From NCBI GenBank assembly GCA_015489175.1, contig WGAI01000067.1, forward strand, positions 1-64,000: a stretch of 64,000 nucleotides of DNA, given 5' to 3'. How positions within the stretch are numbered: the first letter of the stretch is position 1; the number at the start of each line of letters is the position of its first letter. The stretch comes from Caldifarciminota bacterium. Its GTDB lineage: Bacteria; Hydrothermota; Hydrothermia; B15-G9. Under the pieces are notes generated by a model. It worked only from the letters and a program-made list of their open reading frames with translations, did no database searches and had not been told where the DNA came from. A program made the translations under genes and the position numbers. This document shows, one piece after another, positions 1 through 36,300 of the stretch.

Positions 1-2353
1 CATTGGACGGCGCATGACCCGAATTCACCAGTTCTACCTGAAGCACGCCGTCGCCGCAATGCGACACCGATGAGAAGCGATAATCCAGAACCTCAAGCTC
101 TGGAGCCGCAATCCTCACGGTGTAGCTGGCTGTGTCGGGGGTTGCGTTTTCCCACGAATAGACCAATCTCAATGTGGTTGTTGCCCCGTAAGGTGCGTTT
201 GGAGATACCGAAATCGGGGTTGCTATGTTAACCGTATCGTTGCCTCCAATTGAACTGATATGGAAGGCCGTATCGCCTGCTGAGAGCCATTCCCCCGCCA
301 AGATGCTGACACGGATGTTGTTTATCCCCTCAGGCGTTCGGTTGACAAGCGTGGCGTTGAGGGTGTCAACGCCGTCCGGATAAAGGAACGGTGCGTTAAA
401 ACCGATGTGTGCAATCTCGATAGGCTGATCGCTTTCGGCATGTATAGTCTGTTCAAACATGGCATAGCCGCCTTTCCACACATAGAGCTGCACGGAATCC
501 TCGATCGGTGCGGTCGTGATGACTGCTTCCCCGTTGAAATCCGTTATCCCGTGATAAGCGCTATTCCCCTGAACTGCGGTAACATGTGCGCCTTCAATCG
601 GTGTGCCATCGATGTTTGTGACATCAACCCGAACCGTTGATGTGCCTCGAAAGATGGTGTTTTGGACGCTGACATAGAGTGTGTTGAGGGCGTGGATTGG
701 AATGTAGAGGTCAGGATCTCCGAGCAGGTTCATGGTGTAAATCATCCACCTGTAAGTGTTGGCACCGTTCGCAACTGGCACAAAGAGGGCTTTTGTGGCG
801 GCTACCGTTGCGCCCAGATCCGCCACCCTTCTGTTTATCAGAATGTCAAAGAACTCGATATCCATCTCGTCAGCAGGGCCGCAACCCGAAAAACCGGGGA
901 TATACCACCCGTATCGACTGTTGCCGACGAAAAATCCGCCGCCGTTCTGCGCTTTCACAAAGCTTTCAGCTATGCAGTCGTAGTCGAACGCTGCGACCCA
1001 GCAGCCAAGCGAATAAAGCACACCGACATACTGCGGCGCATTCGACAGGTTCGAGAAATCGCTCGGACTGAGGTAGCCAGAACCTGCCTGCATCAGCCAA
1101 GTGTTGCCGTGCCCGTTGTGGTTTACAAGGTTGTAGCCGTAATTGACGAATCCGACGAAGCTTCCGGGAGTAAGCATGCCATCGCGTTCGTAGAGATGCG
1201 AGACGCTCACGCTGTCGGACACCTTATCCGTAATGATGTCCTTCAAAATTCCGCCGTCTGTGGCGTTGTCCAAAAAACTTGCGACGAAAAGTGCGCGATT
1301 GAGATGAGCGACATCGCTGTTGCTTTCGTAGGTTATGACCTTGTTGACGAACACCTGCACATCCTGAGGCGTGGACACCGGTGCCCTACCGACAAAGATG
1401 TCCGGCCACAGGTCAACGGAATCGTCAACTTCGCCGAAAACGGAATTGCCATTTGCGTCCCATGTCCCATCGAGATCCGAAAAATATAGGTCTGCAGGAA
1501 TAGTATCTCCTTGTTGCGGTTGTGGGTGACTGTTCATTGCGAAAGCCTTGCGATACGGGAGCACATCCGTGTCTCCTCCAAGCAAAAGGTAGATGAGACC
1601 GGAATCGGCGGCCGATTTGAGGTAGTTCCTGAGCTTCTCGGCGTCGTCACGGCCGCTGTAATGCGTCCTTATCCACTCTATCGTCCTGAGCGCAACCCTG
1701 AGCCCCTTGTGGATTTTCCAGTTTATCAGGGGCTGCCAATAGCTGGAAAGAGAATTGGAAGTTACAATAAGGTAATCAAATCCACCACTTTCCTTTTGCG
1801 ATGTCGCCTGAATTTCATCGGAATTAAGGACGAGTGAGCGCAGGAGCTCGGCTCTATCCTGACTCACTATGACAGGGGATTGCGGAATCTCTATCTCAAA
1901 TTTTCGGTTGAAGATTACCTTGCCATCCATGGGGTTATACTGGATTGGATACAGCGTCAGGCCTACGACATCCACCCCGATGAAACGACCCCGTTTCTCC
2001 TCGTAAGGATTGCGCGGGTAGAATGCGTTTTTTGCATAGTATTCTGGCGCAGGCGAGCTCAGACGGACGGTTGTGGATGATGAGTCTGTCGGCAGCTGGA
2101 CGGGCGACGGTGAGATTTTGAGGTTCTCGACCGTGTCGGCCTCGACCACCCTGACAGTTATGTTTGTGTTTTCTGTCGGAAGCGCTACCAGAATCGTTTT
2201 AAACGGTATCCATGGCGCCCCGTCGATCGCCAGCATGGGCAGGCTGTCCACCCTCACGAAGCTTGCAGGCCCCTTCTGCTCGATGTTGAACTCGTGAAAT
2301 GTCACGGTATGAGTGAGTTGAATTAGCAGGATAGACATGAAAAATCCATTCAT
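1..2353 (-). CDS. Peptidase C25 (gingipain-like) secreted protease, partial (3' end beyond left edge)
   Basis: Reverse-complement frame read by eye from ATG at 2353 (MNGFFMSILLIQLTHTV, SD-like AGAGGTG upstream) to the window edge. Contains a gingipain-like His motif (NYGYNLVNHNGHGN) and Cys motif (VGVLYSLGCWVAAFDYD), then beta-sandwich sequence. Not in the ORF track because it has no stop inside the window. Confidence 0.88.
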   Translation of the reverse strand, partial: MNGFFMSILLIQLTHTVTFHEFNIEQKGPASFVRVDSLPMLAIDGAPWIPFKTILVALPTENTNITVRVVEADTVENLKISPSPVQLPTDSSSTTVRLSSPAPEYYAKNAFYPRNPYEEKRGRFIGVDVVGLTLYPIQYNPMDGKVIFNRKFEIEIPQSPVIVSQDRAELLRSLVLNSDEIQATSQKESGGFDYLIVTSNSLSSYWQPLINWKIHKGLRVALRTIEWIRTHYSGRDDAEKLRNYLKSAADSGLIYLLLGGDTDVLPYRKAFAMNSHPQPQQGDTIPADLYFSDLDGTWDANGNSVFGEVDDSVDLWPDIFVGRAPVSTPQDVQVFVNKVITYESNSDVAHLNRALFVASFLDNATDGGILKDIITDKVSDSVSVSHLYERDGMLTPGSFVGFVNYGYNLVNHNGHGNTWLMQAGSGYLSPSDFSNLSNAPQYVGVLYSLGCWVAAFDYDCIAESFVKAQNGGGFFVGNSRYGWYIPGFSGCGPADEMDIEFFDILINRRVADLGATVAATKALFVPVANGANTYRWMIYTMNLLGDPDLYIPIHALNTLYVSVQNTIFRGTSTVRVDVTNIDGTPIEGAHVTAVQGNSAYHGITDFNGEAVITTAPIEDSVQLYVWKGGYAMFEQTIHAESDQPIEIAHIGFNAPFLYPDGVDTLNATLVNRTPEGINNIRVSILAGEWLSAGDTAFHISSIGGNDTVNIATPISVSPNAPYGATTTLRLVYSWENATPDTASYTVRIAAPELEVLDYRFSSVSHCGDGVLQVELVNSGHAPSN

Positions 2354-2413
2354 TCTGATGACACCTCTCAAGTTTTGTGGTGGGATATTATAAACCGGCG
2401 GGAAATAAAAAGA

Positions 2414-2488
2414 TCGGGGCGAGTGGATTCGAACCACCGACCTCTTGGTCCCGAACCAAGCGCGCTAACCAAACTGCGCTACGCCCCG
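2414..2488 (-). tRNA. tRNA-Pro (anticodon CGG)
   Basis: Reverse complement CGGGGCGTAGCGCAGTTTGGTTAGCGCGCTTGGTTCGGGACCAAGAGGTCGGTGGTTCGAATCCACTCGCCCCGA folds as a cloverleaf: 7-bp acceptor, CTTGG/CCAAG anticodon stem with loop TTCGGGA, and GGTTCGAATCC T-arm. Confidence 0.95.
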
Positions 2489-2540
2489 ATCGTCGAGTGG
2501 ATATTATATCCGTGCGGCAAGTTCCAGTCAACGACGCGAT

Positions 2541-3320
2541 ACATTATCACTCATTTAAAATGTTACCGAAATGAAACCGATCACCAAATGATAATGTTAC
2601 CAAAACGGAGGTGAAGTATGCATAAAAATCTACCTATGAACTTCCCTGAAAGGCGCAAATACTCGCTCATGATGAAATCTCGCTACAAAAAGGCCCCTAA
2701 GAAAAAAATATATCATCCTCGATGAGATGCAGAAGGTCACAGCCTCCATCGTAAATCAATCATGTATGCCCCATCTCTCACTACTGAGCGCAGACTTCAT
2801 GAAAGAAGTCCGATCTATGGTGCAATGGTTAAAGATGCCCTCTGCATAGTAGCCAAAGTTCTCGATTACCCGGCCGCAGAACGGTAAAAACCCGCTCTCC
2901 TCTCCACCGCTCGCTATCTCACAAGCTTCGGAGATCTTCAGCTTAATCAGAAGTTGTCACAAAAGCTGGCCAAAATCGACCTCTCCACACTCAGGCGCAT
3001 GCTCGCTTCCATCCCGAGGGATAAACCTCGCCCAAAAGCAAAAGCTCCAAATCGCAGCAACAAAAGGATTCTCCTGATAAAAATTCCAATAGAATGCATT
3101 GAGGCTGACCTTGTGCATCACTCTGGTTATTGTTGATGTAGCCACTGGTTGGGTAGAACTTTGGGCTGTGTTAGAGAGGTTATGTATAACGATTTCAATC
3201 ACATCCTGCTCCGTCTCACTTCCCAACCGGAGCTACTCTCTGTTCAGTGAGGTTTAGTAACGAAATCAAATGGAGGCTAACATTTTCTCGGCAACATTTT
3301 CATTTGACTTTACACTTAGG
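2541..3320 (+). mobile_element. Degenerate IS-like element with imperfect terminal inverted repeats
   Basis: Left end CACTCATTTAAAATGTTACCGAAATGAAACC. Right end (reverse complement) CAAATGAAAATGTTGCCGAGAAAATGTTAGCC. They flank the transposase remnant. Confidence 0.6.
2618..3240 (+). pseudogene. Decayed transposase / integrase-catalytic-domain protein
   Basis: Frameshifted pieces in order: MHKNLPMNFPERRKYSLMMKSRYKKAPKKK, ILDEMQKVTA, VAKVLDYPAAE, LTSFGDLQLNQKLSQKLAKIDLSTLRRMLA, IEADLVHHSG, VIVDVATGWVELWAVLE. These match the layout of rve-type transposases (…KKEKGxILDE…LDYPCGKR…ExDLVAHxGG…TDVATGWTExxAV). SD GGAGG precedes the ATG at 2618. Confidence 0.75.
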
Positions 3321-3443
3321 GCAAGGTGCATAACAAAAATGCACTCGATACACTCTAAATGCGTCAGGATAAAACGCCAACTTACAGAGAAGAAAAGATG
3401 TTGGTGATCTTGCTCTCTGCCTTTTTCCCAGAACTTCACAGGG

Positions 3444-3473
3444 TTGAATTTTGAATTAAAAAAACTCGATAAT
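3444..3473 (+). promoter_or_regulatory. Putative sigma70-type promoter for glmS (TTGAAT-N18-GATAAT)
   Basis: -35-like TTGAAT at 3444-3449 and -10-like GATAAT at 3468-3473, with 18-bp spacing, upstream of glmS. Confidence 0.4.
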
Positions 3474-3481
3474 CTCACTCA

Positions 3482-3519
3482 GGTTGAAGGAAAAGCTCCT
3501 TTCAACCGCCATATTTTTT
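3482..3519 (+). terminator. Hairpin plus U-tract in the glmS leader (terminator or attenuator)
   Basis: GGTTGAAGGA-AAAGC-TCCTTTCAACC stem (one bulge), then GCCATATTTTTT. Confidence 0.5.
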
Positions 3520-3547
3520 CAAAATCCATCAGGGGAGGTAGAACGAT

Positions 3548-5371
3548 ATGTGTGGTATTGTCGGATACATAGGGAATAAGGATGTTGGTTCAGTTGTGCT
3601 TGTTGGTCTGGAAAAACTTGAGTATCGAGGCTACGATTCCGCAGGGATAGCTGCGATCCATGACGGTAATCTGTTTTTGAGGAAACGAGTCGGCCGTTTG
3701 AGCAACCTTTACAGCCTCGTGAACGGTCGTTCTATCAACGGAAACATAGCCATAGGCCACACTCGATGGGCAACTCATGGCCAGCCGACGGAGGAGAACG
3801 CCCATCCACACACGGATTGCAAAAATCGCGTCGCAGTAGCACATAATGGGATAATAGAGAATTTCCATGAGCTCAGGGATGAACTCGTCCGCAAGGGACA
3901 TCGGTTCGTCTCCGAAACGGATTCCGAGGTCATACCGCATCTGATCGAGGAGTATTACAAAGGCGATCTTGTGGATGCAGTCATCAAGGCAATATCGAGG
4001 CTTAAAGGCTCCTTTGCGCTCGCCATCTTCTCAGTTGACCACCCTGACATGTTGATAGGGGTGAGGAAAGACAGCCCGCTCATCGTCGGAGTCGGGGACG
4101 GCGAGATGCTCCTTGCATCCGACATACCTGCGATACTGTCTCACACCCACAAGGTCATCATATTGGACAACGGAGAGATAGCGATTTTGAAGAGATCTAG
4201 CTACGAGATCATAGATTTTGATGGAAATCACCGCGAGAAAACCGTCACGAATGTGGACTGGGATGTGCGCGATGTCGAATTAGAGGGATTTGAGCACTAC
4301 ATGTTGAAGGAAATTTACGAACAACCTGAAGTCATAGAGCGCAATCTCAGGAACTACCTTCGAAACAACGAATTCCTCCTTCTGAAAGACACCAACTTGA
4401 GGCGTTTGTTGCTGACCAAGAGTTCGATCCTCATTCAGGCCTGTGGCACATCGAAACATGCGGGCATGGTTGGCAAATACCTGCTCGAGCGGTTTGCGAG
4501 GATCCCCACGCGTGTCGAGTTCGCATCGGAATTTAGATACATGCACCCAGTTGTGCCGCCCGACACGCTCGTCATCGCCATCAGCCAATCTGGCGAAACG
4601 GCTGACACGCTTGCCGGCCTGAGGATGGCACATGAGATGGGGCTTGAGGTGCTGTCGATAGTGAATGTCAGGGATAGTTCCATCGCGCGCGAATCCGATT
4701 ATGTAATCTACACGGAAGCCGGGCCAGAGATAGGCGTAGCTTCGACAAAAGCTTATACCGCTCAAGTGCTTATACTCACTTTGCTCGCCTTTGAGCTCAG
4801 CTCTCTCAGAGGAATCATATCCAACGATGAGACCATCCACTACATCGAGGAGCTTAGGAAGCTGCCGGGCAGAATTAGACGCGTGCTCGACATGGACGAT
4901 GACATCAAATCGATCGCCGCACATTATCACGGTTACAATGACTTCATGTTTTTGGGACGCGGAATCAATTACCCGACCGCCCTCGAAGGCGCGCTTAAAC
5001 TCAAAGAGATCTCCTACATCCACGCCACAGGTTATGCTGCTGGTGAGATGAAACACGGCCCTATCGCACTTATAGACAAGAACATGCCTGTTATTTTCGT
5101 AAATCCTAACACCAGCGTGTTCGAGAAATCCATATCCAACATGAAAGAGGTGGAGGCGCGAGGTGGCATCATCATCGCACTGACAACGGAAGGCGTGGAA
5201 CTGCCGCACGGGATTGCCAGAGAGACGATACGCATCCCTGAGATCGACGAGCCTCTCGTTCCCATCCTGTCAATAGTCCCGCTTCAGCTCCTTGCCTATC
5301 ACATAGCGGTTATGAGGGGTTGCGATGTGGACAAGCCGAGAAACCTTGCCAAAAGCGTGACCGTGGAATAG
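3548..5371 (+). CDS. glmS: Glutamine--fructose-6-phosphate aminotransferase (isomerizing)
   Basis: MCGIVGYIGN N-terminus (Cys2 nucleophile), two SIS domains, terminal KPRNLAKSVTVE. SD aggggagg upstream. Confidence 0.98.
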   Translation: MCGIVGYIGNKDVGSVVLVGLEKLEYRGYDSAGIAAIHDGNLFLRKRVGRLSNLYSLVNGRSINGNIAIGHTRWATHGQPTEENAHPHTDCKNRVAVAHNGIIENFHELRDELVRKGHRFVSETDSEVIPHLIEEYYKGDLVDAVIKAISRLKGSFALAIFSVDHPDMLIGVRKDSPLIVGVGDGEMLLASDIPAILSHTHKVIILDNGEIAILKRSSYEIIDFDGNHREKTVTNVDWDVRDVELEGFEHYMLKEIYEQPEVIERNLRNYLRNNEFLLLKDTNLRRLLLTKSSILIQACGTSKHAGMVGKYLLERFARIPTRVEFASEFRYMHPVVPPDTLVIAISQSGETADTLAGLRMAHEMGLEVLSIVNVRDSSIARESDYVIYTEAGPEIGVASTKAYTAQVLILTLLAFELSSLRGIISNDETIHYIEELRKLPGRIRRVLDMDDDIKSIAAHYHGYNDFMFLGRGINYPTALEGALKLKEISYIHATGYAAGEMKHGPIALIDKNMPVIFVNPNTSVFEKSISNMKEVEARGGIIIALTTEGVELPHGIARETIRIPEIDEPLVPILSIVPLQLLAYHIAVMRGCDVDKPRNLAKSVTVE

Positions 5372-5379
5372 GAGCACGC

Positions 5380-7545
5380 TCAGCTCAAGAAGTCCTTTAT
5401 GTTCAGGCTTCTGACGAGCAGCACTGTTCCGAGCGGCTCCAATAGTTTGTCCATTCTGCTGATAAAAACGCCCTCCTCGCCCTTGCGCGGCACCCCCATG
5501 CCCACGATAGTGAGGTCTGAAATGCTTGAAAATTCGGACATTATGTCGATTATCCTGTCCATTGGGTTTTCTTTGATCAAAATCACAGGTTCGGCCTCAA
5601 TCCTGGCGTCCTGCATGATCTCCCGTATCTTTTTCTCCGATCGCTCTTTTTCCTCTTCGTTCGAGACGACCTCTATGAGCCTGATCTTGGCATCGCGCCA
5701 CTCGCTGTTGAGTTTTATTATGTGTGCGAGTAGAACCATCAGCGGTGCGTTACCGCCTTTGCCGCGCCAGAAGATGTCTATCGTAAGCCTGTTGCCAAAC
5801 CCTCTCTCAGGATCGTATTTGAGCGCAAGAATGTCCTTCTTAAGAAAGATTAGCTTGCGAATTATGCGGGCAAGCTCCACTTTGCGTTCAAAATTGTTGC
5901 TCCAGCCGAACATCGCGACATCGGATGTCAGTTTCCCGATACCATGCGCCTGAACGATAGTGGTGAACCCGTCCTCAGCGGTTCTGGCGATCTCAACTTC
6001 GGGGAAAATCGCCCACCTGTTCTGCCTGATGTATCGCCTGAGCTCTGCCAGCCGCTTCTCTCGCTCGGTTGCAAGGTCTTCAACATCTCCCACCAAAAGG
6101 TTGAACAGCGTGACAATCCCGTTGCCCCTGCTGAGCCATCGAGCCATTTTGACAAGGTGCGGCCTTTCGCCGGGCCCGCCACTGAAGACCATGATGTTCG
6201 GCCTCCAGTTAACCGTTCCGGGCTCGTAATCCTCCAGTTTCAGCAATGCGAACCGCGCAAGGCTTATCCAGACGCCGCTCCGAATGTCGCCCCATGTCTG
6301 GTTCAACTGCCTGTGTTGCAATATGATATAGATAGCAAAGAGGATGAGGGTTGCGATGATCGTGTAAATTGGGCTGATGAGAAACATCACGATGTAGGCG
6401 CCAATGACCCCGTAAAAAGAGATCGCCCAATGGACTCTAAACCGCGGCCTGTAACTCGGGTTTCCTATCAGAGATGAAAGGCCCGCCGCAAGGTTCGTCA
6501 CGCCGTAAGTCGTCAGGAAGAACATGGTGATGATCGTCGCCACCATGTTCAGGTTTCCCATCAGAATGAAGGTCTCGGCTATGAGGAATGTCACGATGAT
6601 GCCAGCTCTGGGCTCATTCTTCTTTGATCCGAGTGTCGCTGCAAGGAATTTTGGCACAACATGATCCCACGCAAGCGCCTGAAGCGTGCGCGGAGCGCCG
6701 ACGATGAATGTCAGAGCTGATGAAATAGTTGCCATCCAGATGCCGAGATAGACGAGTGCGGGCACAAGCGCTCTTTTTACCATTATCAGGTTGTCGCTCA
6801 ACAGGATCTCGTATGGAGCGACCGCTGTGAGTTTGACCGCCACCAGAAGATAAACGAGGTAACTGACGCCAAGAGCCATCAATGTGCCGCGAGGAATGTT
6901 CTTTGCGGGATCTTTGAGCTCACCCGACATGCTTACACCGGCAGTAACGCCCGTAACTGCCGGGAAAAATATCGCAAACACGCTCCAGAAGTTTTCCTCA
7001 GGGAGGTAATGCGGCGTCAGATTTATCGACATCGGCACCCATTGTTTTGTCAGGAAGAAAGACAGGATGCCCGCGATAAGTGACACGAAAATGCCGATCT
7101 GAACTTTGACGGCAAGGTCGGCGCCTATGAATGCGATCACCGTAAAGATAATCAGCACGATAGAGGCCACCAGTTTGAAGTTGAGATGAGGAAACAGCCC
7201 CAAAAGCGATTCCGTGAAACCTATCACATAGAAGGCTACCGATATGGATTGGGACAAAAAGAGCGGGATGCCGATCGCTCCGCCGATGTTGAGGCCAAGA
7301 CTCCTTGAGATTATGTAGTAAACGCCGCCAACGCCGACCTCCGTATTCGTTGAAATAGCTGATAACGATAGACTTGTAGCAAATGAGATCGACATCGCCA
7401 GCGTTATGAGGATTACACCAACGAACAGGCCGGTGTTCCCGATGACCCATCCCGTCCTAAGAAACAGGATGACGCCGAAAATCGACAGAATTGTGGGCAC
7501 GAACACGCCGTTGAAGGTGCCGAACCGCCTGACATTGTTTTCCAT
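5380..7545 (-). CDS. Amino acid/cation-chloride cotransporter (SLC12-like) permease
   Basis: FGTFNGVFVPTILSIFGVILFLRTGWVIGNTG is typical of cation-chloride cotransporters. ~12 TM segments and a long cytosolic C-terminal domain. Confidence 0.85.
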   Translation of the reverse strand: MENNVRRFGTFNGVFVPTILSIFGVILFLRTGWVIGNTGLFVGVILITLAMSISFATSLSLSAISTNTEVGVGGVYYIISRSLGLNIGGAIGIPLFLSQSISVAFYVIGFTESLLGLFPHLNFKLVASIVLIIFTVIAFIGADLAVKVQIGIFVSLIAGILSFFLTKQWVPMSINLTPHYLPEENFWSVFAIFFPAVTGVTAGVSMSGELKDPAKNIPRGTLMALGVSYLVYLLVAVKLTAVAPYEILLSDNLIMVKRALVPALVYLGIWMATISSALTFIVGAPRTLQALAWDHVVPKFLAATLGSKKNEPRAGIIVTFLIAETFILMGNLNMVATIITMFFLTTYGVTNLAAGLSSLIGNPSYRPRFRVHWAISFYGVIGAYIVMFLISPIYTIIATLILFAIYIILQHRQLNQTWGDIRSGVWISLARFALLKLEDYEPGTVNWRPNIMVFSGGPGERPHLVKMARWLSRGNGIVTLFNLLVGDVEDLATEREKRLAELRRYIRQNRWAIFPEVEIARTAEDGFTTIVQAHGIGKLTSDVAMFGWSNNFERKVELARIIRKLIFLKKDILALKYDPERGFGNRLTIDIFWRGKGGNAPLMVLLAHIIKLNSEWRDAKIRLIEVVSNEEEKERSEKKIREIMQDARIEAEPVILIKENPMDRIIDIMSEFSSISDLTIVGMGVPRKGEEGVFISRMDKLLEPLGTVLLVRSLNIKDFLS

Positions 7546-7632
7546 TAAGAGCTCCTTGTGTCAGATTTGCCCCACGCCGAGTGGCTTCAGAATTTTATTG
7601 GTGTTTCACGAGTGTGCAAGCATCTGCCTGAT
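7479..7632. repeat. Direct repeat copy A (~154 bp) flanking the R-M system
   Basis: Near-identical to 10921-11073 (2 mismatches and a 1-nt indel by eye). Contains the transporter 5' end and a duplicated 3' tail of the PhoU-like gene. Confidence 0.97.
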
Positions 7633-7724
7633 GTCATAAATAATTTTTCTCAAAATTTTATAGGACGCGTTTACTACGCTTAGCTTTTTTCTAGTTTTCA
7701 TCTACGATAGAGAAGGTTCTCATC

Positions 7725-10064
7725 CTAAAAGAGCTTATCTTGAAATTCCTTTTTCTTATCATTCTTATCATCTTGCTGAAATTTAGCCATTATTGTGGGG
7801 ATAATCGCATTTGCTATCTTAAATGACCTTGGTATAAGTTCGGAATAACAGTGCCTAATTGGTTCATTTTCAAGGGGAGCAATTGTCACGCTACTCATAA
7901 CTGCTGCATGTAGAAATGTTTTAAGTTCTCCAGTTGAAGTCCCTATTTCTTTCAAAGCGTCAGCAATCTCATAAGCCAATTTTTTAGCATGTTCTTCCAT
8001 GCCAATTCTTGTGTTAAATTTTTTCCTCGCGATGATTATTAGCGTTCTATCAAGGACATTATTGTTTTTTCTGGCTACAAGTCTGGTAAGAAGTTCAGTT
8101 GTTACAGGCCATATTCTCGTTATGTAAAAATTGCTTCCGTAAAGCGCACTTATTATTGATTTCCACGCGTTTAAACTTCTATGTGTAAACCACACAACTA
8201 AAATGCCATCATCTTTCAGTGCATTATAAGCTTCTTTAAAGAATTCCAACATCCGTTTAGCATACCATATCTCATCAAATTCGTTTTGACTTTTAGCATA
8301 ATTCTTGCTTTTTCTTACTATTAGCTCCCCTTTTCTCGGGACAGTTTGAGAATCTGTATCCCATTTAGCTATTTCTTTGTTATCGAATATAAATCCATCA
8401 TCTATAAGTTGTTTGAGGGATAATCTCAGCACCTGCCAGAAATACTCGCTGATATCACTGTAGATATGCGTATCAAAATAAGGTGGGTCAACATTTATTA
8501 AATCAAATTTTTCGTTGATATAGGATGTCAGTTTTCTCGCATCTCCATGAATTATGTTAATTCTATCGCCTACTCCCTCTAATCTTTTGCAAACTTCGTG
8601 CAATACTGGCACAATACCACCTTGAGTTCTCTTATCCACATCTGTTTCAAAAATCCATCGTAAATTTCGACGGGGAACGATAGCTTCACAATATGCTTCG
8701 CCATAGGATACTTTTCTGTTTCTTGCGTATTGACCGAGTGTGTCTCTTATTGTCCCCTTTTTCCATGTTGTTACAATTGAATTGTAATCTATAACTCTGC
8801 TTACTCCTAAAGCAAGATACAGCATTGACGCTTTTCCAATATCGTCGGTAGGCTCTATTGTAAGAATCCGTTTATTGATGTAGCTTATGATGTGTGCAAT
8901 CGAAAGTAATTGGCGTGGATTGAACAATTGATACCAGTGCTTAATTCCATATTTTTTGACTGGATTAAATACTTCATTGTCTTCAGGGATCTCCTTCACG
9001 GGGAGGTGTTGCTTAATCTCTGCAAATGATTCAGAGAACTGTTTGCAAGCTTTCAGAAAAGCATTAAAGTCTTCATTGTTGGCTATCCTATAGCCATCTT
9101 TTGTTTGTCTAATCAAAATCCTATGCGTAAAAAGGATTTCCTCTTCTTTAAATTGCCCATCCGCAAGGTCATCCAGAATTTTAATGTGGTCTTCCGTCCA
9201 TATTTTATAAGCCTCATATTTTTTAATTTTATGTCCGCAATAGGGACACACAACTTCTCCTCTTTTGATGTGAGGTAGTTCAGTTCTGAATTTAGAGATA
9301 TACGGTTTGAATGTCTTTTCATCTTTATTAAAACGAAACCCCAAATGGTATTTAGCCGTAATTTCTGAACTGTGAACTAATGGTATATGTCCGCCACATT
9401 TTGGGCATTTGATTCCTCTCGCAAATATATAACCTTCAGCATCTTCAGGATATAAACCATCAAGCTTCTTTTCAATATGGAAAATCAGCTTTTTTGCTTC
9501 CTCTTTCACCCTTTTAGCGAGCTCGTTACCGTATTGGGCAGGATATTTGATCGTAGCTTTCAGGATAATATAAGCTACCGGGCTATAATCAACTGCCACC
9601 GTCCTAAAGCCCAATCTCAGGCTCTCAAAAGGGATTGTTCCTCCACCAGCCATTGGATCACAAACAATAATCTCATCCGGATTTTTCCCTTCCTCATGCA
9701 ACAAATTCGCAATTATATCTTTTTTAGGGTCTGTATAGAATAGAAGCGGAGGATATTTATTTTGAATGTATGCGTCTTTTTTCATATTCCATCCAAGAAT
9801 GTCCATGAATGTACTTTTATCAACACCATCATTTAAAATAGATGCAAGGGTTATTGCTCGGGCTGCGGAACATGGCCTTCGAGCAAACCAAGGATGCAAA
9901 TTTCTTATTTTAGGGTCAAAGAACTCCCTACCTATTTTTCCGGCTATTCCAAGTTCTCTCGCATGTTTTATATAGGCAGGTGCGGACTTATATGCCATTT
10001 CGATTCCAGCATCTCTACTTATCTCCTTTACCGGGAACCACATTTCAATAAGTTTTTTATCCAT
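7725..10064 (-). CDS. DUF1156/COG1743-type DNA methyltransferase with Zn ribbons (modification subunit)
   Basis: N-terminal NLHPWFARRPCSAARAITLASIL, CDPMAGGGTIPFESLRLGF, INVDPPYFD catalytic motif, and two CxxC ribbons (CPKCGGH, CPYCGHK). Confidence 0.88.
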   Translation of the reverse strand: MDKKLIEMWFPVKEISRDAGIEMAYKSAPAYIKHARELGIAGKIGREFFDPKIRNLHPWFARRPCSAARAITLASILNDGVDKSTFMDILGWNMKKDAYIQNKYPPLLFYTDPKKDIIANLLHEEGKNPDEIIVCDPMAGGGTIPFESLRLGFRTVAVDYSPVAYIILKATIKYPAQYGNELAKRVKEEAKKLIFHIEKKLDGLYPEDAEGYIFARGIKCPKCGGHIPLVHSSEITAKYHLGFRFNKDEKTFKPYISKFRTELPHIKRGEVVCPYCGHKIKKYEAYKIWTEDHIKILDDLADGQFKEEEILFTHRILIRQTKDGYRIANNEDFNAFLKACKQFSESFAEIKQHLPVKEIPEDNEVFNPVKKYGIKHWYQLFNPRQLLSIAHIISYINKRILTIEPTDDIGKASMLYLALGVSRVIDYNSIVTTWKKGTIRDTLGQYARNRKVSYGEAYCEAIVPRRNLRWIFETDVDKRTQGGIVPVLHEVCKRLEGVGDRINIIHGDARKLTSYINEKFDLINVDPPYFDTHIYSDISEYFWQVLRLSLKQLIDDGFIFDNKEIAKWDTDSQTVPRKGELIVRKSKNYAKSQNEFDEIWYAKRMLEFFKEAYNALKDDGILVVWFTHRSLNAWKSIISALYGSNFYITRIWPVTTELLTRLVARKNNNVLDRTLIIIARKKFNTRIGMEEHAKKLAYEIADALKEIGTSTGELKTFLHAAVMSSVTIAPLENEPIRHCYSELIPRSFKIANAIIPTIMAKFQQDDKNDKKKEFQDKLF

Positions 10065-10068
10065 CGCT

Positions 10069-10857
10069 TCAAATGCTCCTATTTTTAAATTCAGCGAATT
10101 TTCTGTCTATTTCATCCCTTAATCCCTCTCCTGCTTCCTGAAATACATCTAACAACTCATCGTATATGTCATCGCCTGTAACAAAATTCCAAAATTCCTC
10201 TCCAACCAGGATCTCTCCTCTATCCAGGTCATATAAGCCTTTCAAAGTCCACCGTTCATAAGGCCGGGGATGGTAAGGGTTGTAAGGAATTGCGAGCCTC
10301 GTAAATACCTCAACATTTTTATCCTGGCTCAATCTCAACGCCGTCCATCTTAAGAGCTTCAGCTTTAATGCTGAGAACTCTTTCATGTTGGGTTTTGCAC
10401 TGGTTATGTCAAAGTAATTTTCAACATCGCCGATTTTTACAAATAAATCCACTCTCGAATCGGGATCTTTCCTGGGAGTTCCTTTCCTGATGCTTTTTCT
10501 TATAAGCTCAATTTCCTCTAATTTACTTACCTGTCTTACACCTGCCCTTAAATCATAGTGTATGGTTTGGATAAGTTTTTCGGTTTCAGGGTCTATGTTA
10601 CCCAGTAAATCATATTGTCTTTTGGCTTGAAACCCGGCGCTTTCAGCAAGAATTACAGCAACCTGTTCCCATATAGAAATTCCAAATGTAGTATTCATTG
10701 ATTGGATGAACGAGAACATAGCATATCTATCCCTCCCTAACAACCTAAAATGAAACGGCATCTGTTTTGTTTCCGGTTTATACTTCCTTAGTTTAGTTTT
10801 TACAATGTTTACCAAGAGATTGCGTATTTTATCGCGAGTTTGCCGTTTTAAACTCAT
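10069..10857 (-). CDS. Type II restriction endonuclease, TdeIII-like
   Basis: 262 aa. Resembles the RE_TdeIII family (RLLGRDRYAMFSFIQSMNTTFGISIWEQVAVILAE; DSRVDLFVKIGDVENYFDITSAKPNMKEF with a PD-(D/E)xK-like core). Adjacent to the methylase. SD AGGAGG. Confidence 0.8.
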   Translation of the reverse strand: MSLKRQTRDKIRNLLVNIVKTKLRKYKPETKQMPFHFRLLGRDRYAMFSFIQSMNTTFGISIWEQVAVILAESAGFQAKRQYDLLGNIDPETEKLIQTIHYDLRAGVRQVSKLEEIELIRKSIRKGTPRKDPDSRVDLFVKIGDVENYFDITSAKPNMKEFSALKLKLLRWTALRLSQDKNVEVFTRLAIPYNPYHPRPYERWTLKGLYDLDRGEILVGEEFWNFVTGDDIYDELLDVFQEAGEGLRDEIDRKFAEFKNRSI

Positions 10858-10920
10858 GTTTTACCTCCTATTTGATCATATTTTACAGCCACAGAGAGAA
10901 ATTTCGGCAATTCCCACCTC

Positions 10921-11073
10921 AAATCGACAGAATTGTGGGCACGAACACGCCGTTGAAGGTGCCGAACCGCCTGACATTGTTTTCCATTAAGAACTCCTTG
11001 TGTCAGATTTGCCCACGCGGAGTGGCTTCAGAATTTTATTGGTGTTTCACGAGTGTGCAAGCATCTGCCTGAT
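10921..11073. repeat. Direct repeat copy B (~153 bp) flanking the R-M system
   Basis: Near-identical to 7479-7632. Contains the 3' end of the PhoU-like gene and a truncated 5' fragment of the transporter. Confidence 0.97.
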
Positions 11074-11727
11074 CCGTTCAACTGTGTCTTTTGCCCTATC
11101 TGATATTGATGTCAAACACCTTGTCATGCTCAAAATGAAGATGGCATCGCCGTAGCTGAGTTTGTCCTCGTTATCAAACACGAACTGCATTATCTCGCCG
11201 CTGATCACATCGATCGAATGCTCTATCTCTTCGACCTCTCTGATAAGCTGGTATTCCCTCTCAATCTCGTCATCTCTGAAACCGCTTTCGATCACGATAT
11301 CGAGCTGTGAGATGGCGTTGTGCAGGTTGCGGGCCACTTTGATGCTCTCTTTGCCGATGCTTATCACTTTTTCCTTGAGTTCGTCTGGTATTGACCTCTC
11401 CTTGCACACCTTCAGCCATTTGGTAACATCCTGAGCCGCATCTGCGACTTTATCCTGAAAATACAGACAGAGAAGCACATCTGCGCGGCTCACAGGCATG
11501 AAAATGCGCGATGTTAGCGTGTCCCTTATGGACTCTTTGACCTTATCCGCCTCCTGCTCAAGGCTATCGACGGCGTCGCAGAGTTTCAACATCTCATCTT
11601 TGCGCCCTTCGCTCCATGCGACCAGCGCTTCCTCAAGCTTTTCAACAGCCTTGAGGACTATCTCGGAATGCTTTATCAAAGGCTTGAAAGGGCTCTTTGC
11701 GAAAAGTTTAAGCCATGCGCTCACCAT
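11047..11727 (-). CDS. PhoU-like DUF47/TIGR00153 family phosphate transport regulator
   Basis: Helical PhoU-like sequence (ADVLLCLYFQDKVADAAQDV). Immediately downstream of the Pit gene. Confidence 0.9.
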   Translation of the reverse strand: MVSAWLKLFAKSPFKPLIKHSEIVLKAVEKLEEALVAWSEGRKDEMLKLCDAVDSLEQEADKVKESIRDTLTSRIFMPVSRADVLLCLYFQDKVADAAQDVTKWLKVCKERSIPDELKEKVISIGKESIKVARNLHNAISQLDIVIESGFRDDEIEREYQLIREVEEIEHSIDVISGEIMQFVFDNEDKLSYGDAIFILSMTRCLTSISDRAKDTVERIRQMLAHS

Positions 11728-11730
11728 GAT

Positions 11731-12993
11731 TTAACCTCCTATGAAGATGAGAAAAAGTTTAAAAATTCCAGCCGCCATAACAGCAGCAATTGGGACGGTG
11801 ACGAACCATGAAATTACAATGTCCTTGAGGACATCGGTGTTTATAGCGCGCAACCCCCTTGCCAGCCCCACACCTACAACGGCGCCGACCACGGTGTGGG
11901 TGGTGGAGATCGGCATGCCCAGTCTTGATGCAACAAGGACTGTTGTCGCTGTGGCAAAATCTATGCTAAATCCCCTCGTATTTGTTAGCTGCGTGATCCC
12001 ATGGCCGACTGTTTGCATCACGCGATAGCCCCATGTGGCGACGCCAATCGCTATGCCAAGCCCTCCGAGTGCAAGTATCCATCTCGGCACAGGCACCTTT
12101 GCGCCGGCTGAGCCGAACATGATTGCAGTATAGACCGCAGCAACAGGTCCGATCGCATTCGCGACATCGTTGGCGCCGTGGGATAGAGCTACATAGCATG
12201 ATGTCACAACCTGGACATTGCGGAAAATGCGCTCCACAGATTTGTATGGGTTGCCGCTTCCGGTGTAATGCCTTAGCACTAATTTGCTTACGCCGACTGC
12301 TAAAAGTCCAACGGCCAAACCGACCAGAAGGGAGCGAATCATATCGTTACCATGCAATGTCTTGAGGTAGAACATAATTCCCACAATGAAAAAGGCCAAT
12401 CCTATCCAGAATGGGGCATATTTCCTTGCGTTCTGGAGTGGGTCTTCGGCGCTCAAAATGGTCTTCCTGATGAGCCAGAACAGAGTGAACCCGACTATTC
12501 CCCCTACAATCGGAGACAGTATCCAGCTCAACACCACCATTATCAGCTTACTCCAGTTGACGATTTTCACTCCGGCATAAGCTATTCCGTAACCAACAAG
12601 TCCACCGATTATCGAATGGGTCGTTGACACGGGAAGTCCCCAATAACTTGCCGCAAGCAGCCAGATAGCAGCCGATAGCAGGGCGGAGAGCGAGCCATAA
12701 ATCAGGATGTTGATGTTCTGGATGTGGCTTGGATCGATTATGCCCTTGCGGATTGTCTCTGTGACATGCTTTCCGAAGTAGTAAGCGCCTATAAATTCGA
12801 GAGAAGCCGCAATGATGACAGCCTGGGCCGGCGTTATTGCACCAGCACCGACCGCGGTGCTCATGGAGTTGGCCGTGTCATTGGCCCCAATCCCCCACGC
12901 CATGAAAAGCCCAACGGCGAGGGTTACTAAAAGCAAGGGATGGGTTGTTATGAGATGTATCATCGCCTCCCTTCCGTTTTGTTTGGGTTTCAA
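11731..12993 (-). CDS. pit: Inorganic phosphate transporter, PiT family
   Basis: GANDTANSMSTAVGAGAITP and GANDVANAIGP signature repeats. The start may be the internal Met at about 12963. Confidence 0.95.
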   Translation of the reverse strand: MKPKQNGREAMIHLITTHPLLLVTLAVGLFMAWGIGANDTANSMSTAVGAGAITPAQAVIIAASLEFIGAYYFGKHVTETIRKGIIDPSHIQNINILIYGSLSALLSAAIWLLAASYWGLPVSTTHSIIGGLVGYGIAYAGVKIVNWSKLIMVVLSWILSPIVGGIVGFTLFWLIRKTILSAEDPLQNARKYAPFWIGLAFFIVGIMFYLKTLHGNDMIRSLLVGLAVGLLAVGVSKLVLRHYTGSGNPYKSVERIFRNVQVVTSCYVALSHGANDVANAIGPVAAVYTAIMFGSAGAKVPVPRWILALGGLGIAIGVATWGYRVMQTVGHGITQLTNTRGFSIDFATATTVLVASRLGMPISTTHTVVGAVVGVGLARGLRAINTDVLKDIVISWFVTVPIAAVMAAGIFKLFLIFIGG

Positions 12994-30378: not shown

Positions 30379-33300
30379 ATGAAGAAGATTTTGTCTATTT
30401 TTATATTGGTGATGGCGGTATCCAATGCAGCTGCGTCTCCGGTTTACATTACGAATGTCGAAGTGGAGCCCAATCCATTCAGTCCTAACGGTGATGGGAG
30501 GGCGGATACAACAACTTTCTCATTCATACTTAGTGGCTATGTGGATACTGTCTATCTAAGGATATTCCGCGATTCGCTTAACACGAGCACAGGGCTCAGA
30601 GACACTGTAATCGACTCTATCGTCGCTGTCCTTACTCCTGGAATTCAGGGTGCCAATGTGATGGCATGGACTAATGTCGAGACCGATCCATCCATATTGC
30701 CGGATGGGCCGTATCACTATTTCATTTACGGTAGCGATACGACGGACACGGCCACAGGTATCGTCTATATAGATAGACAGCCACCTACAATTTACAATGT
30801 CTCTGTGACACCCAACCCATTCAGCCCAAATGGAGACGGTATCAACGACTATGCTCACATTGCGTTTTCGGTCACAGGCAGTTACCGCCCTGAGGACAGC
30901 CTGTTTTTCCGTAAGCCACCTCTGGGCATTGGTTATCTTCAGCTGTGGTATCAGAACGGTGCAGGTCATGGCGTGTTTGTGGCCAATGCAAAGGTAGATT
31001 CAGCGGATGGACATGTCGATAACATCATCGAATTCCCTTATCCGGTGTATCTCGCTCTGGCTGTCGGTGGACTTCAGGGGCTTGAGCAGGTCGATCTTAG
31101 GTTCTTCGATTACGCCAACAGGGCCATCGACATTACGGCTCAGCCAAATGAGGACATAAGAATTGGAATACCAGAAACTTACCTGTTGAACAAATTTATG
31201 TATTTCTCCTCAAGTTCGTTCATCGTGACGAACATGGACTCTCTTGATCCAGGAGTTTCAATCCTGATACCTGTTTACGCATTTACTGGTAACGCATCGA
31301 TAACGATCACTGACATCAACAATCAGGTTGTAAGTGTTGTTGATTTCGTGGATGTTTACAGAGGAGATGGTAATTACTTCACGGATTGGGGGCCTGACAA
31401 CATACCCGACGGCCTTTACACATTCAGCATTCAGGCACAGGATGAGTCCTACAATGTGGAGCTTTACACGGGCAATGTGATAGCCAATTCGATACCGACA
31501 AATGTCGATTCCCTGACCGTTTCACCGTCAGTTATCTCTCCAGCTAACCTTGATGGGCGAGCTGACGCAGCGCTCGTGCAGTTCTCCATCTCCGAAGAAG
31601 CCCATGTGACTGTCAGGGTTTATAACTCTGCTACACAGTGGGATACAACGACGCTTGTCAGGACTTTGATAGGCGATTCTGTCATGCAGGGCGGCAGCCA
31701 CTCCTTGACATTCGACGGAAGGGACAACAATGGGAATTTCCTCGCACAGAACAGTGACAGCACATACACCGTCGTCGTCACAGCTTACGATCCATATACC
31801 CTCGATTCGGATGTCAAATCGGCGCCGATAGTTGTGGACAATCTTTCGCCGTCCTTTGACACACTTTACATCAACACTCTGGTCAACAACACCATCGATA
31901 CCCTTTACGGAAAGGTAAACGAGCCGGGTAGTGAAATTCGCGTCTTTCGCAACGGATATCCCATAGGCATAGCCATCGCCGATTCCATAACGGGTAACTT
32001 CTCGCTTGTTGTCACCTATGTTGAGGGCATAAACACATTTACAGCAATCGCTTACGATGCAGCATACAACAGTGACACGGCGTCCGTCACGGCTCTCTGC
32101 GACCTTCATGCCCCGACACTGGCCTCAAGTTCGCCTTTCGACGGCGAAGCATTCCAGACTTTCACGATCGCAAACGGCAAAGCTGTTTTGATCGATAGCA
32201 TCTATCATGACAGTGCATCTGGTATCGATTGGGCCACCGCATCGGTTCATCTCTACTACGAAAATTATCTCAGAGACACATATCTTGGTTCCCCGATAAC
32301 GCATCTCGGGGATACGCTTTTCATCCCGTTCATCACGGATTCAATAAACGCCCACAGCGGCCATTACAGGCTTATCGTTTCGGTTCAGGACAGGGCAGGC
32401 AACACGATGTTCGATACCGTGAGATTTACGGTCGATAGAGTTGCTCCGACTATTGTCACGATTCCAGATTCCGGTTCACCTACGAACATGCTGGATACGG
32501 TGATGGCAGTAATTCGGGACTCGATATCTGGCGTTGACACGATCAGCACTACCGTGTCACTTGAGAAACGCAATGTGAGAACGATCGAGGGAACCACTTT
32601 CTGGCGTGGAGATACGGTATTTTTCGTGCCACTTTCTCCGATACCGCGCGATGGCTCTGATGACGGCGAGTATATCTTTGCCGTCGATGCCGTGGATAAG
32701 GCCGGAAACTACACTCCAAAGCGCTCTTTGATTATTTACGACACAAGGCCGCCGCACATAACGACATTCTGGCCGCCTGACAGCTCAACTTTTCAGGATT
32801 CTGTGACAGGGATCGACACCATATTTGCAGTTGTCAACGACAGCTTTGGCAGTTTCGCCGGCTCAGGCCTTGATGTCAACTTCTCGCTCATAAGGCTTGT
32901 GAACACAAATAACGGGCAGGGTGTGATCGGAAATCAGATCTATCATGGCGATACTCTGAAATGGGCGATCGACCCAACGCTCTACGATCCGGCATACGGG
33001 TTCAATGAAGAGGGCACATACATGATAACCGTCACGGCTACGGACAGCGCTGGCAACTCTGCAGACACATCATCGACATTTATCATCGACCTGAGCAGCC
33101 CGATCGTGACCGAGGTCTATCCAGCTGACAGCGCTTATGTGAATGCGAGCCCTGAAAACATCCACGCCATCGTCGTTGAGAGGGGAAGCGGGATAAACAA
33201 ATCCGCATCTTACATCCACATTTACAGGCCTGACGGTGGCGAGGTGCCCGGAACATACACTTTTGTGGGCGATACCCTGCTGTTCTCACTCGAAAATCCG

Positions 33301-36300
33301 TTCCCTGAGGACGGGACATGGGACGGCCAGTTCACCATAGTCGTTCATGTGGAGGACAATGTCGGCAAGACGGTCGAGGACACATTCCACTTCATTTATG
33401 ACACGCAACCGCCTCAGGTTGTGTGGTCCACGCCGTCTGACAGTTCCTACCTCAACCGCAATTTCGAGACCGATTACAACAGGACCATTAAAGTGCGGTT
33501 GAGCGATGCAACATCCGGACTTGATTTCGGGACAAGCGGACTTAGCATCCTCGTGAACTGGGAAAACTACAACGCCTCACCGTCCAACTACCTGAGGTTG
33601 CCGCCAGATACGCTTGGCTTCCACTTCGATAGCCTAATTGAAGGCGAGATTGAAGTTGTCGTCTGGGGCTACGATCACGCTAACAACCTGTTGAACGATA
33701 CTCTGATCCTCATTGTGGATACCACAAAGCCGAGCGTGGTCTTTGTTCCGGACAGCGGGACTATGACAAATTCGCTCAGCACATTCTCGGCCTACATTCG
33801 TGACCTGTTTGCCGGACCTGACACGGCCAGCACACACCTTGCGGTTTACCGGCTGGACAGCCCGTCCGACACCACTTCGATCGGCCTTGACCATTACGAA
33901 TGGCTCGGTGACACCATCGTGTTCTACCCGTATCCTCCGATCGCAACCGATGGGTCAAACGATGGCGAATATCTCATAAGGGCCTATGCTTACGATAAGT
34001 CTGGCAATGTCGATTCAAGCCGAATTTCAACGATTTTCTACGATTCAAAGCCGCCTTATGTCGTTTCTCACTCGCAATCGAGCGGTGCAGATACGCTCAT
34101 AACCGATACGCTGAGCGAGATCTGGGTTCTGCCGTCTGATGCCAACGGATTGAGGTGGGTGTCCGGGATTGATACCAACGGCACTCAGGTCTCAGTTGTT
34201 AACCAGTTCGGCGCTGCGATTGCGGGACACCGTGAATGGCGCGGCGATACGCTCTTTTTCGTGTTCGATAACCCTATATCGGCCGATGGCCGCTACACGG
34301 CGAGGGTCTATATGGCCGACCTCGTCGGCAACACATCCACGGATAGCTTCAGGTTTGTGGTTGACCTGAATTCACCTCAGATCACATGGAGCGACCCGGC
34401 AGACAGCTCCTATGTCAACTCACCGCCGAACGAGATCAGGATCTTCATTCAAGACCTTGGAAGTGGTGTCAACTTCAATGCGTGCTCGGTCGTGGTTTAC
34501 ACGCCCAACATGGGCACGGTCCTCGGTCACACCGAGGTCAGGAACGACACCATCGTCTTCGTGCTTGAGGAGACACTGCCGACGGACGGCTCCGCCGACG
34601 GCGTTTACACCGTTTTGGTATGGGGTCAGGACAACAACAACAGGCCGTTGTCACCTTCCAATCCCGATACGCTGATGTTCACATTTGACACGCAGGTGCC
34701 TCAGCTCGTGAGCTACTATCCGACTCGCGATACGGCACTTAACCAGTTCAATTCGCCCGAATTCGGGCCTGACACCATATTCGCAAGGCTTAGAGATGCG
34801 ACAGCCGGCGTGGATCTCACGACAAGCGACCTGACCCTTCTCAAATACGGGTTGCCTATAAGCGGTGTGGCAGTCACGCGGCGTTCAGCCGATACCACTT
34901 TGATAATGGCCCTGCCATCAGGTCTTGAGGAGGGCAGATATTCGTTCGTCGTCAAAGAGGTCGATTTCGCTCACAACCTCAAGCGCGATAGCATAAACTT
35001 CGTCTATGACCTCACAGGTCCGGTGATTTCGGCGCTGATGCCAGACAGCGAAAAACTTAACATGATCGATTCGATCGACATCTCGGTCATCGACACGCTC
35101 GCAGGCACTGACACCATGCAGACGAACCTGACTGTCAGACTGTTAGATGCAGGCCGCACGATCGGCGGTGATATAGTCTGGCTGGATCCTTCAACTGTCA
35201 GGTTCGTCCCTGATCCGCCGCTTGCCACAGACGGCTCCGATGACGGACTTGTTGAAGTGGAAACGCATGGATTTGACATGGCAGGGAACGGCTCTGTCGA
35301 TACTTCATACCTGATTTACGACACGAGGCCGCCTCGCATTGTGGACGACAGAATCGATTTCTTCCGCGATACGCTAACGCACACGCCTGTCGGCAGTCTG
35401 GTCATGCCGACGGACACCGTAATCGAGGACAGTTTCTTCGGGCTCAGGGTCGCTCTCGATGACAGCTATTTCGGCCGCACCGTTTCCGGGATTGACCCCG
35501 TCAGGAGCACTGCATCGCTCACCTATCAAGGAGGTGCAGCTATACCCGGCATAACGATGGTCAGCAACGATACGCTCTACCTCACGCTTTCCGATACCAT
35601 TCGTGAGGATGACAGGTTCACCGCACGGTTCAACATCGCGGACGAAGCGGGCAACAGCAGCGAATACGAACATAACTTTATCGTTGACCTTTATCCGCCG
35701 GTTCTCGCCGGCACTGTGCCGCCAGATGGCGGATTTATCAATTCACCTCCAACCTATGTGGCGGCCAGCATCTTCGATAACGGGAGCGGTGTCCTTATGG
35801 ACACTTCAGTTACGAAGATCACATTGATCGCTCCCGACAACCATATCGTGCTTGGCTATAACGAATTTGTGAACGATACGCTTTATTTCAGGATCCAGGA
35901 GAACATCGATTCCACGGGCATTGCGGATGGCACATACACGATGATCGTTCGGAGCATGGACAACAGCGGCAAGGGATTTGTTGATACGCTTAGCTTTGTG
36001 CTCGACACGCAGCTGCCGTCCCTCGATTCATCGCTGGCTGTCGTGAACGGAAACGAGTATCCGCTTGAGGATGGGTATTTCAATCAGGCGCCTGATACAT
36101 TGTGGTTCTACCTCAGCGACAGAACGTCCGGAGCCAACCTCCTTTCGAGCGGAGTTTCGCTCCACAGATACGGCCAGCTTCTTGAGACATCCATTGTTAG
36201 GGATACGGTCAATGATAGGCTTGGCATCGTGCCACTCTCACCGCTTGATGATGGGCGATATTTCGCACGAGTAAGCGTTGTTGACCGTGCTCTCAATTTC

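Follow-up and report, generated by a model that had tools for sequence, protein, structure and literature searches.

Gene content of the locus

Between a phoU-like gene and a gene for an SLC12-like transporter, the window (the whole stretch of 64,000 nucleotides that was analysed) carries two genes on the same strand, one for an endonuclease and one for a DNA methyltransferase, and the DNA that holds them is directly abutted on either side by one copy of a long direct repeat (Table 1). The original prediction had spoken of a PhoU-like gene and simply of a transporter; these labels stand in outline and can now be refined to a PhoU_div (DUF47) gene and an SLC12/amino-acid-permease-like gene. The host is an uncultured WOR-3 bacterium (Caldifarciminota bacterium), whose draft genome of 2.06 Mb in 77 contigs is 95.6% complete. 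The genomes compared here are drafts assembled from metagenomes, with each species represented by a single one, and the junctions are known from assembled sequence alone. Elsewhere in the window, positions 30379-41706 hold an ORF of 3775 aa with many bacterial Ig-like domains and a FlgD-type C-terminal domain, the product of which is predicted to be a giant surface or secreted protein.

Table 1. Features of the R-M locus and its surroundings, in window coordinates.
Feature	Coordinates	Strand	Size and remarks
SLC12/amino-acid-permease-like (cation-chloride cotransporter-like) transporter	5380..7545	-	Intact; 98% aa identity in same-genus relative G001
Left copy of target duplication	7479..7632		154 bp; current 5' end and upstream region of transporter; no private change relative to empty-site allele
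Relic of phoU 3' end, downstream of R-M	7606..7632	-	27 bp; from alignment of the copies
Inserted DNA	7633..10920		3288 bp, 37.4% GC; R-M genes only; missing from empty site of G001
R-M unit, limits set by DNA homology with archaeal loci	7720..10907	-	81% to Archaeoglobus L070 over 3197 bp
DUF1156/COG1743-type DNA methyltransferase	7725..10064	-	779 aa; PF06634 above cut-off, N6_N4_Mtase weak
TdeIII-family type II restriction endonuclease	10069..10857	-	262 aa, intact; PF09520 (RE_TdeIII), E 1.1e-62
Relic of SLC12 5' end, upstream of R-M	10916..10987	-	24 codons (residues 1-24, 96%), then TGA
Right copy of target duplication	10921..11073		153 bp; real phoU 3' end, redundant upstream region and 67-bp SLC12 5' relic; all three private changes
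PhoU_div (DUF47) gene, 'phoU-like'	11047..11727	-	Intact; 96% aa identity in G001
Pit-type phosphate transporter	11731..12993	-	PF01384, E 2.7e-117

Global alignment of the two repeat copies gave 98% identity with two mismatches and one one-base indel, exactly as originally described, and a repeat search of the window recovered them as the in-register pairs 7479-7572/10921-11014 (99%) and 7571-7632/11012-11073 (98%). The proposed make-up of the repeat was likewise borne out: it consists of 67 bp of SLC12 5' coding sequence, 59-60 bp of intergenic DNA and the last 27 bp of the phoU-like gene. A genome-wide search with the repeat found two places only (E 3e-76 and 9e-71 in the 2.06-Mb draft), which rules out both a chance match and a dispersed genomic element, the latter having been named beforehand as one of the outcomes that would speak against an insertion. 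Since it is built from the ends of two resident genes and the DNA between them, and is present in two genomic copies only, the repeat derives from the target and not from the inserted element. The right copy provides phoU with its end while the left copy provides SLC12 with its start and upstream region, and both genes are whole; because the duplication covers both gene ends, the insertion broke neither of them. The R-M genes may in turn use a putative transporter promoter contained in the duplicated segment.

The insert itself contains the R-M genes and nothing else of gene size. The ORF list and a domain search revealed no transposase, integrase or other gene-sized ORF in 7633-10920, in agreement with the original prediction, and the repeat search found no inverted repeat pairing the two insert ends. 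The hallmarks of an IS or composite transposon (transposase, terminal inverted repeats, a short target duplication of fixed length) are thus absent at the insert, as are those of prophages, ICEs and integrase elements, the insert holding only R and M and no integrase; integrase elements carry an integrase and attachment-site repeats, usually at a tRNA. The expectation that the insert would be richer in AT than its surroundings was confirmed, with a GC content of 0.374 compared to 0.498 and 0.487 in the 5-kb flanks (37.4% against ~49%; z = -4.3), and no other 3.3 kb of the window is as low. In raw tetranucleotide distance the insert is again the most extreme (0.448; next highest 0.305), whereas after correction for GC the deviation is only about 2 SD.

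Both R-M genes are intact. The endonuclease scores 212 bits against PF09520 (cut-off 27.2), and its residues D137 and D150-(x4)-K155 are conserved over 45 homologues. The methyltransferase has the motifs DPMAGGGT and DPPY together with a Zn-ribbon-like CxxC pair, is matched by MTase_II/HmaB in PADLOC, and is probably the cognate modification enzyme of the TdeIII-family endonuclease. Compared with the Archaeoglobus locus L070, dN/dS is ~0.07 for the R gene and ~0.10 for the M gene, which indicates that both are under purifying selection for function. The recognition sequence of TdeIII and MjaII is GGNCC. The insert has no such site (0 vs 5.5 expected), the host window is depleted of GGNCC and of the control sequence CCNGG to the same degree, and there was no clear signal of GGNCC avoidance across the TdeIII family.

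An empty site in a same-genus relative

Relatives were searched with the SLC12-like transporter (n=60), and the same-genus genome G001, which shares ~91.6% DNA identity with the host genome, matched at 98% aa identity. On contig C156 of G001 (loci L004/L067) the order is pit - phoU-like - SLC12 - glmS with one repeat copy and without R-M, which is the ancestral order that had been postulated and the very arrangement, an empty single-copy site in a relative, that the original prediction had put forward as its main check. Positions 1-1567 of L004 match window 12484-10921 and positions 1412-5163 match 7632-3883, the two matches overlapping in the repeat only, so that both window copies align to the same 156 bp of G001. 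No TdeIII gene was detected anywhere in the G001 genome. The more distant G003, of the same family, has pit and phoU followed by a different gene, and no R-M there. The contig of G002 stops inside the transporter and is hence uninformative for the site. No relative was seen that carries two repeat copies without R-M.

A three-way alignment of both copies with the G001 allele contains 14 columns, corresponding to 13 events, that set both copies apart from G001. Private changes number three, at positions 73, 94 and 102; they all belong to the right copy and fall within the intergenic DNA, and the left copy has none. That both copies share all lineage changes implies that the resident allele was copied in this lineage after its split from G001, so the duplication arose here, with or after the insertion. 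Only the redundant right copy has decayed; the one from which the transporter still takes its upstream region has kept its sequence. On a simple clock, and with numbers as small as 3 vs 13, the duplication may be roughly one-fifth to one-quarter as old as the divergence from G001. The view that the event is recent, which had been based on the high identity of the repeats, therefore holds in relative terms only, as three differences between the copies against 13 lineage events.

Source of the R-M unit

Homology of the R-M unit to L070 covers ~97% of the insert, and on the upstream side it starts ~13 bp inside the insert edge. The nearest endonucleases come from Archaeoglobales, Thermoplasmatota and one Aerophobetes genome (87-80% aa identity), with a branch support of 80/88 that is not strong, and no donor closer than dS ~1 (vs L070) was found. 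Among the loci examined, the DUF1156-type partner occurs only in an archaeal-related subgroup, mainly Archaeoglobales and Thermoplasmatota. PF09520 was also matched in the control genome of Methanocaldococcus jannaschii.

Some further observations were made on archaeal and other relatives of the unit. Across TdeIII loci L050-L113, similar endonucleases are accompanied by three methyltransferase architectures, namely the 779-aa DUF1156 type downstream and proteins of ~406 aa and ~535 aa upstream, which suggests that TdeIII endonucleases have exchanged methyltransferase partners. In a Thermoplasmatota R-M copy (L075), an opposite-strand ORF of 392 aa starting MKSIFVGIDVSKHSFTACAL lies between R and M at 8787-9965 and by eye resembles an IS110 transposase. 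Ahead of the endonuclease gene, on its upstream side, some 45 bp (10858-10907) that include a TTTAAAAAT-like stretch are conserved with the archaeal loci L070, L072, L075 and L100, and are a candidate for a shared promoter element possibly carried across domains.

Flanking repeats at other TdeIII loci

TdeIII R-M loci were gathered from 85,462 species and from the WOR-3 phylum, where the family is present in 28 of 147 genomes. The test set comprised 44 loci that were testable and free of duplicates; at each, the highest-scoring direct repeat shared by the two 900-bp flanks was compared with those of equally sized windows at other positions in these loci. A score of at least 70 was reached by five of the 44 loci (the window, L181, L101, L082 and L093) and by six of 1851 control windows (Fisher p ~2e-6), and when the window and the contig-end locus L101 are left out, three of 42 loci still reach it (p 8e-4), both p-values being approximate as control windows from one locus were treated as independent. 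The remaining 39 of the 44 loci have no strong flanking repeat, which means that a long duplication is not obligatory, or that it decays.

An independent case that closely parallels the window locus is that of L181 (G177:C3:106000-116061), from another WOR-3 family, where repeats of 166/167 bp with 98% identity (6412-6578 / 8800-8965), found nowhere else in that genome, surround a 2.2-kb insert of 32% GC (42-49% around it) with a TdeIII R-M system that has a 405-aa methyltransferase. In G176 (L185), of the same genus as G177, both L181 flanks are colinear, with ~145 bp between them and no R-M. In a third genus, L098 of G020 has a 28-bp repeat, and its sister species G033 has a clean single-copy empty site. 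G033 holds a 93.3%-identical R-M unit (L097) at a different site from that of L098, and the unit may have moved within this lineage, its divergence resembling the genomic background. The length of the duplication thus varies between insertions, at 154 bp in the window, 167 bp at L181 and 28 bp at L098.

Two loci with less similar repeats, L082 (6657-6780/8854-8988; 138 bp, 78%) and L093 (6646-6715/8796-8865; 72 bp, 86%, confined to its site and made up of the 5' end of the gene that follows downstream), are TdeIII units with a 406-aa methyltransferase in Omnitrophota and Bacteroidetes/Chlorobi MAGs, and are candidates for older target duplications; no empty or orthologous site was found for either in their families.

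Contig ends supply two separate observations. The whole 2907-bp contig of L101 is a TdeIII R-M system alone with identical 76-bp ends, suggestive either of a loop, the form in which an R-M between identical repeats assembles, or of a circular molecule, and L094 has a suggestive 31-bp contig-end repeat around R-M; without reads, neither proves anything. Other repeats were rejected: that of L089 (3369-3442/8644-8714) is a low-complexity motif far from the R-M unit, that of L091 has further copies within the same locus, and the 16-bp repeat of L097 is not a clean duplication, as the endonuclease stop is separated from the right copy by host-like sequence and synteny is broken in G020.

Discussion

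We propose that a compact R-M unit very probably entered this lineage after the sister-species split and inserted between the phoU-like and SLC12-like genes with a duplication of its target. A unit of TdeIII and DUF1156 type, from a lineage now known mostly from archaea, would have arrived after the split from G001 and landed between the two genes, where, as comparison with the empty site shows, a 154-bp stretch of the target was doubled, so that the insert has a copy on either side. In the likeliest scenario, the arriving DNA would have been joined at a break or gap, the ends of which were offset by ~154 nt, or captured by a replication-type repair, with fill-in making the second copy; this joining step, and with it the molecular mechanism, is offered tentatively, as somewhat short of probable. 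Ku was not detected in the host genome, which disfavours classical NHEJ. The unit would then have been retained as a working defence and addiction module, a function that we infer alongside the purifying selection shown by dN/dS, and its flanking repeats would permit a later clean deletion via homologous recombination.

The main rival is single-crossover (Campbell-type) integration of a circle with R-M and the 154-bp segment of the locus, derived from a close relative that already carried R-M there. It would give the same X-A-R-M-A-Y product, the three differences between the copies could be those between donor and recipient, and there is a precedent in the horizontal reconstitution of HpyAII in H. 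pylori, which has an 80-bp flanking repeat (PMC7494987). We nevertheless regard it as improbable, as a donor with R-M beside the segment is needed, so that the original event is only pushed one step back, and as all three private changes lie in one copy, in its redundant part, just as neutral decay predicts. The empty site might also be read in reverse, with G001 losing an ancestral R-M system when its repeats recombined and keeping the single copy as the deletion product. HpyAII is known to be deleted through repeats of this kind (PMC7494987), and the product of such a deletion resembles an empty site; however, an earlier duplication should have left the copies to diverge independently, barring conversion, whereas they share 13 lineage events and differ by three, and the more distant G003 also lacks R-M next to phoU, which makes this history very improbable. 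Slightly less credible still is a 154-bp tandem repeat that existed beforehand and received the R-M genes exactly between its copies: the final structure alone is compatible with it, but the same-genus relative has one copy, two independent events would be required with the insertion exactly at the repeat joint, and the same architecture is found at unrelated sites in G177 and G020.

R-M systems are often carried on conventional mobile elements, yet delivery by an IS or composite transposon, an integron cassette, a prophage or an ICE would have to be reconciled with an insert that lacks a transposase, an integrase, any further gene and an inverted repeat pairing its ends, and with a duplication that, at 154 bp, far exceeds the usual IS target duplications; we give such delivery hardly any credence. 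The same can be said of an assembly artefact. A metagenome-assembled genome of 77 contigs invites the suspicion, but a simple assembly duplication would give identical copies and is opposed by the three differences between them (two mismatches, one indel), syntenic genes continue on both sides, and the R-M genes are intact and intergenic.

Insertion of R-M systems with long target duplication, which the original prediction treated as established, is indeed a known phenomenon (Nobusato et al., 2000; Furuta et al., 2010, as described in PMC3874152, PMC3031569 and PMC1643837). As these later papers describe them, such insertions resemble ours in that R-M stands alone without a transposase, between direct repeats on the scale of 100 bp, of which a relative has a single copy and whose length varies by site, and they differ from it in that our case comes from an uncultured WOR-3 host and the TdeIII family. 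HpyAII (HpyII) of Helicobacter pylori is similarly placed between long direct repeats, of 80 bp, through which R-M can be deleted or restored (PMC7494987); its enzymes and organism are unrelated to those studied here, and its deletion and restoration have been seen, whereas the WOR-3 case is known from sequence only. Insertions of PabI-family R-M in Campylobacter, Helicobacter and Staphylothermus share with ours that, by genome comparison, the R and M genes are (nearly) alone in the insert without a transposase, but in them 62 bp or 4 bp of target were replaced with no long duplication (PMC4615327), unlike in the WOR-3 case. The endonuclease belongs to the same family as those of TdeIII/MjaII-type systems (PF09520), which pairs with at least three methyltransferase architectures, of which the WOR-3 unit has the downstream DUF1156 type. 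The literature searched made no mention of TdeIII by name. Hence, the WOR-3 locus is well supported as a new, well-resolved case of an already known type of R-M insertion.

It is a long-standing question how R-M genes manage to move when no transposase is at hand, and the evidence has come mainly from Helicobacter comparisons; in the present case, from a deep, uncultured phylum, the empty site is resolved and the events can be placed in a dated order. Together with two more empty-site cases in the same enzyme family (167 and 28 bp), it shows that the pattern is not peculiar to naturally transformable pathogens. One could go further and regard TdeIII R-M units as autonomous mobile units, whose insertion route regularly makes long target duplications of variable length, perhaps via breaks by their own endonuclease. 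We hold this to be doubtful; if true, the duplication would restore gene ends, so that insertion into packed gene clusters would be nearly harmless. TdeIII is one enzyme family where the mechanism of R-M insertion could be tested.
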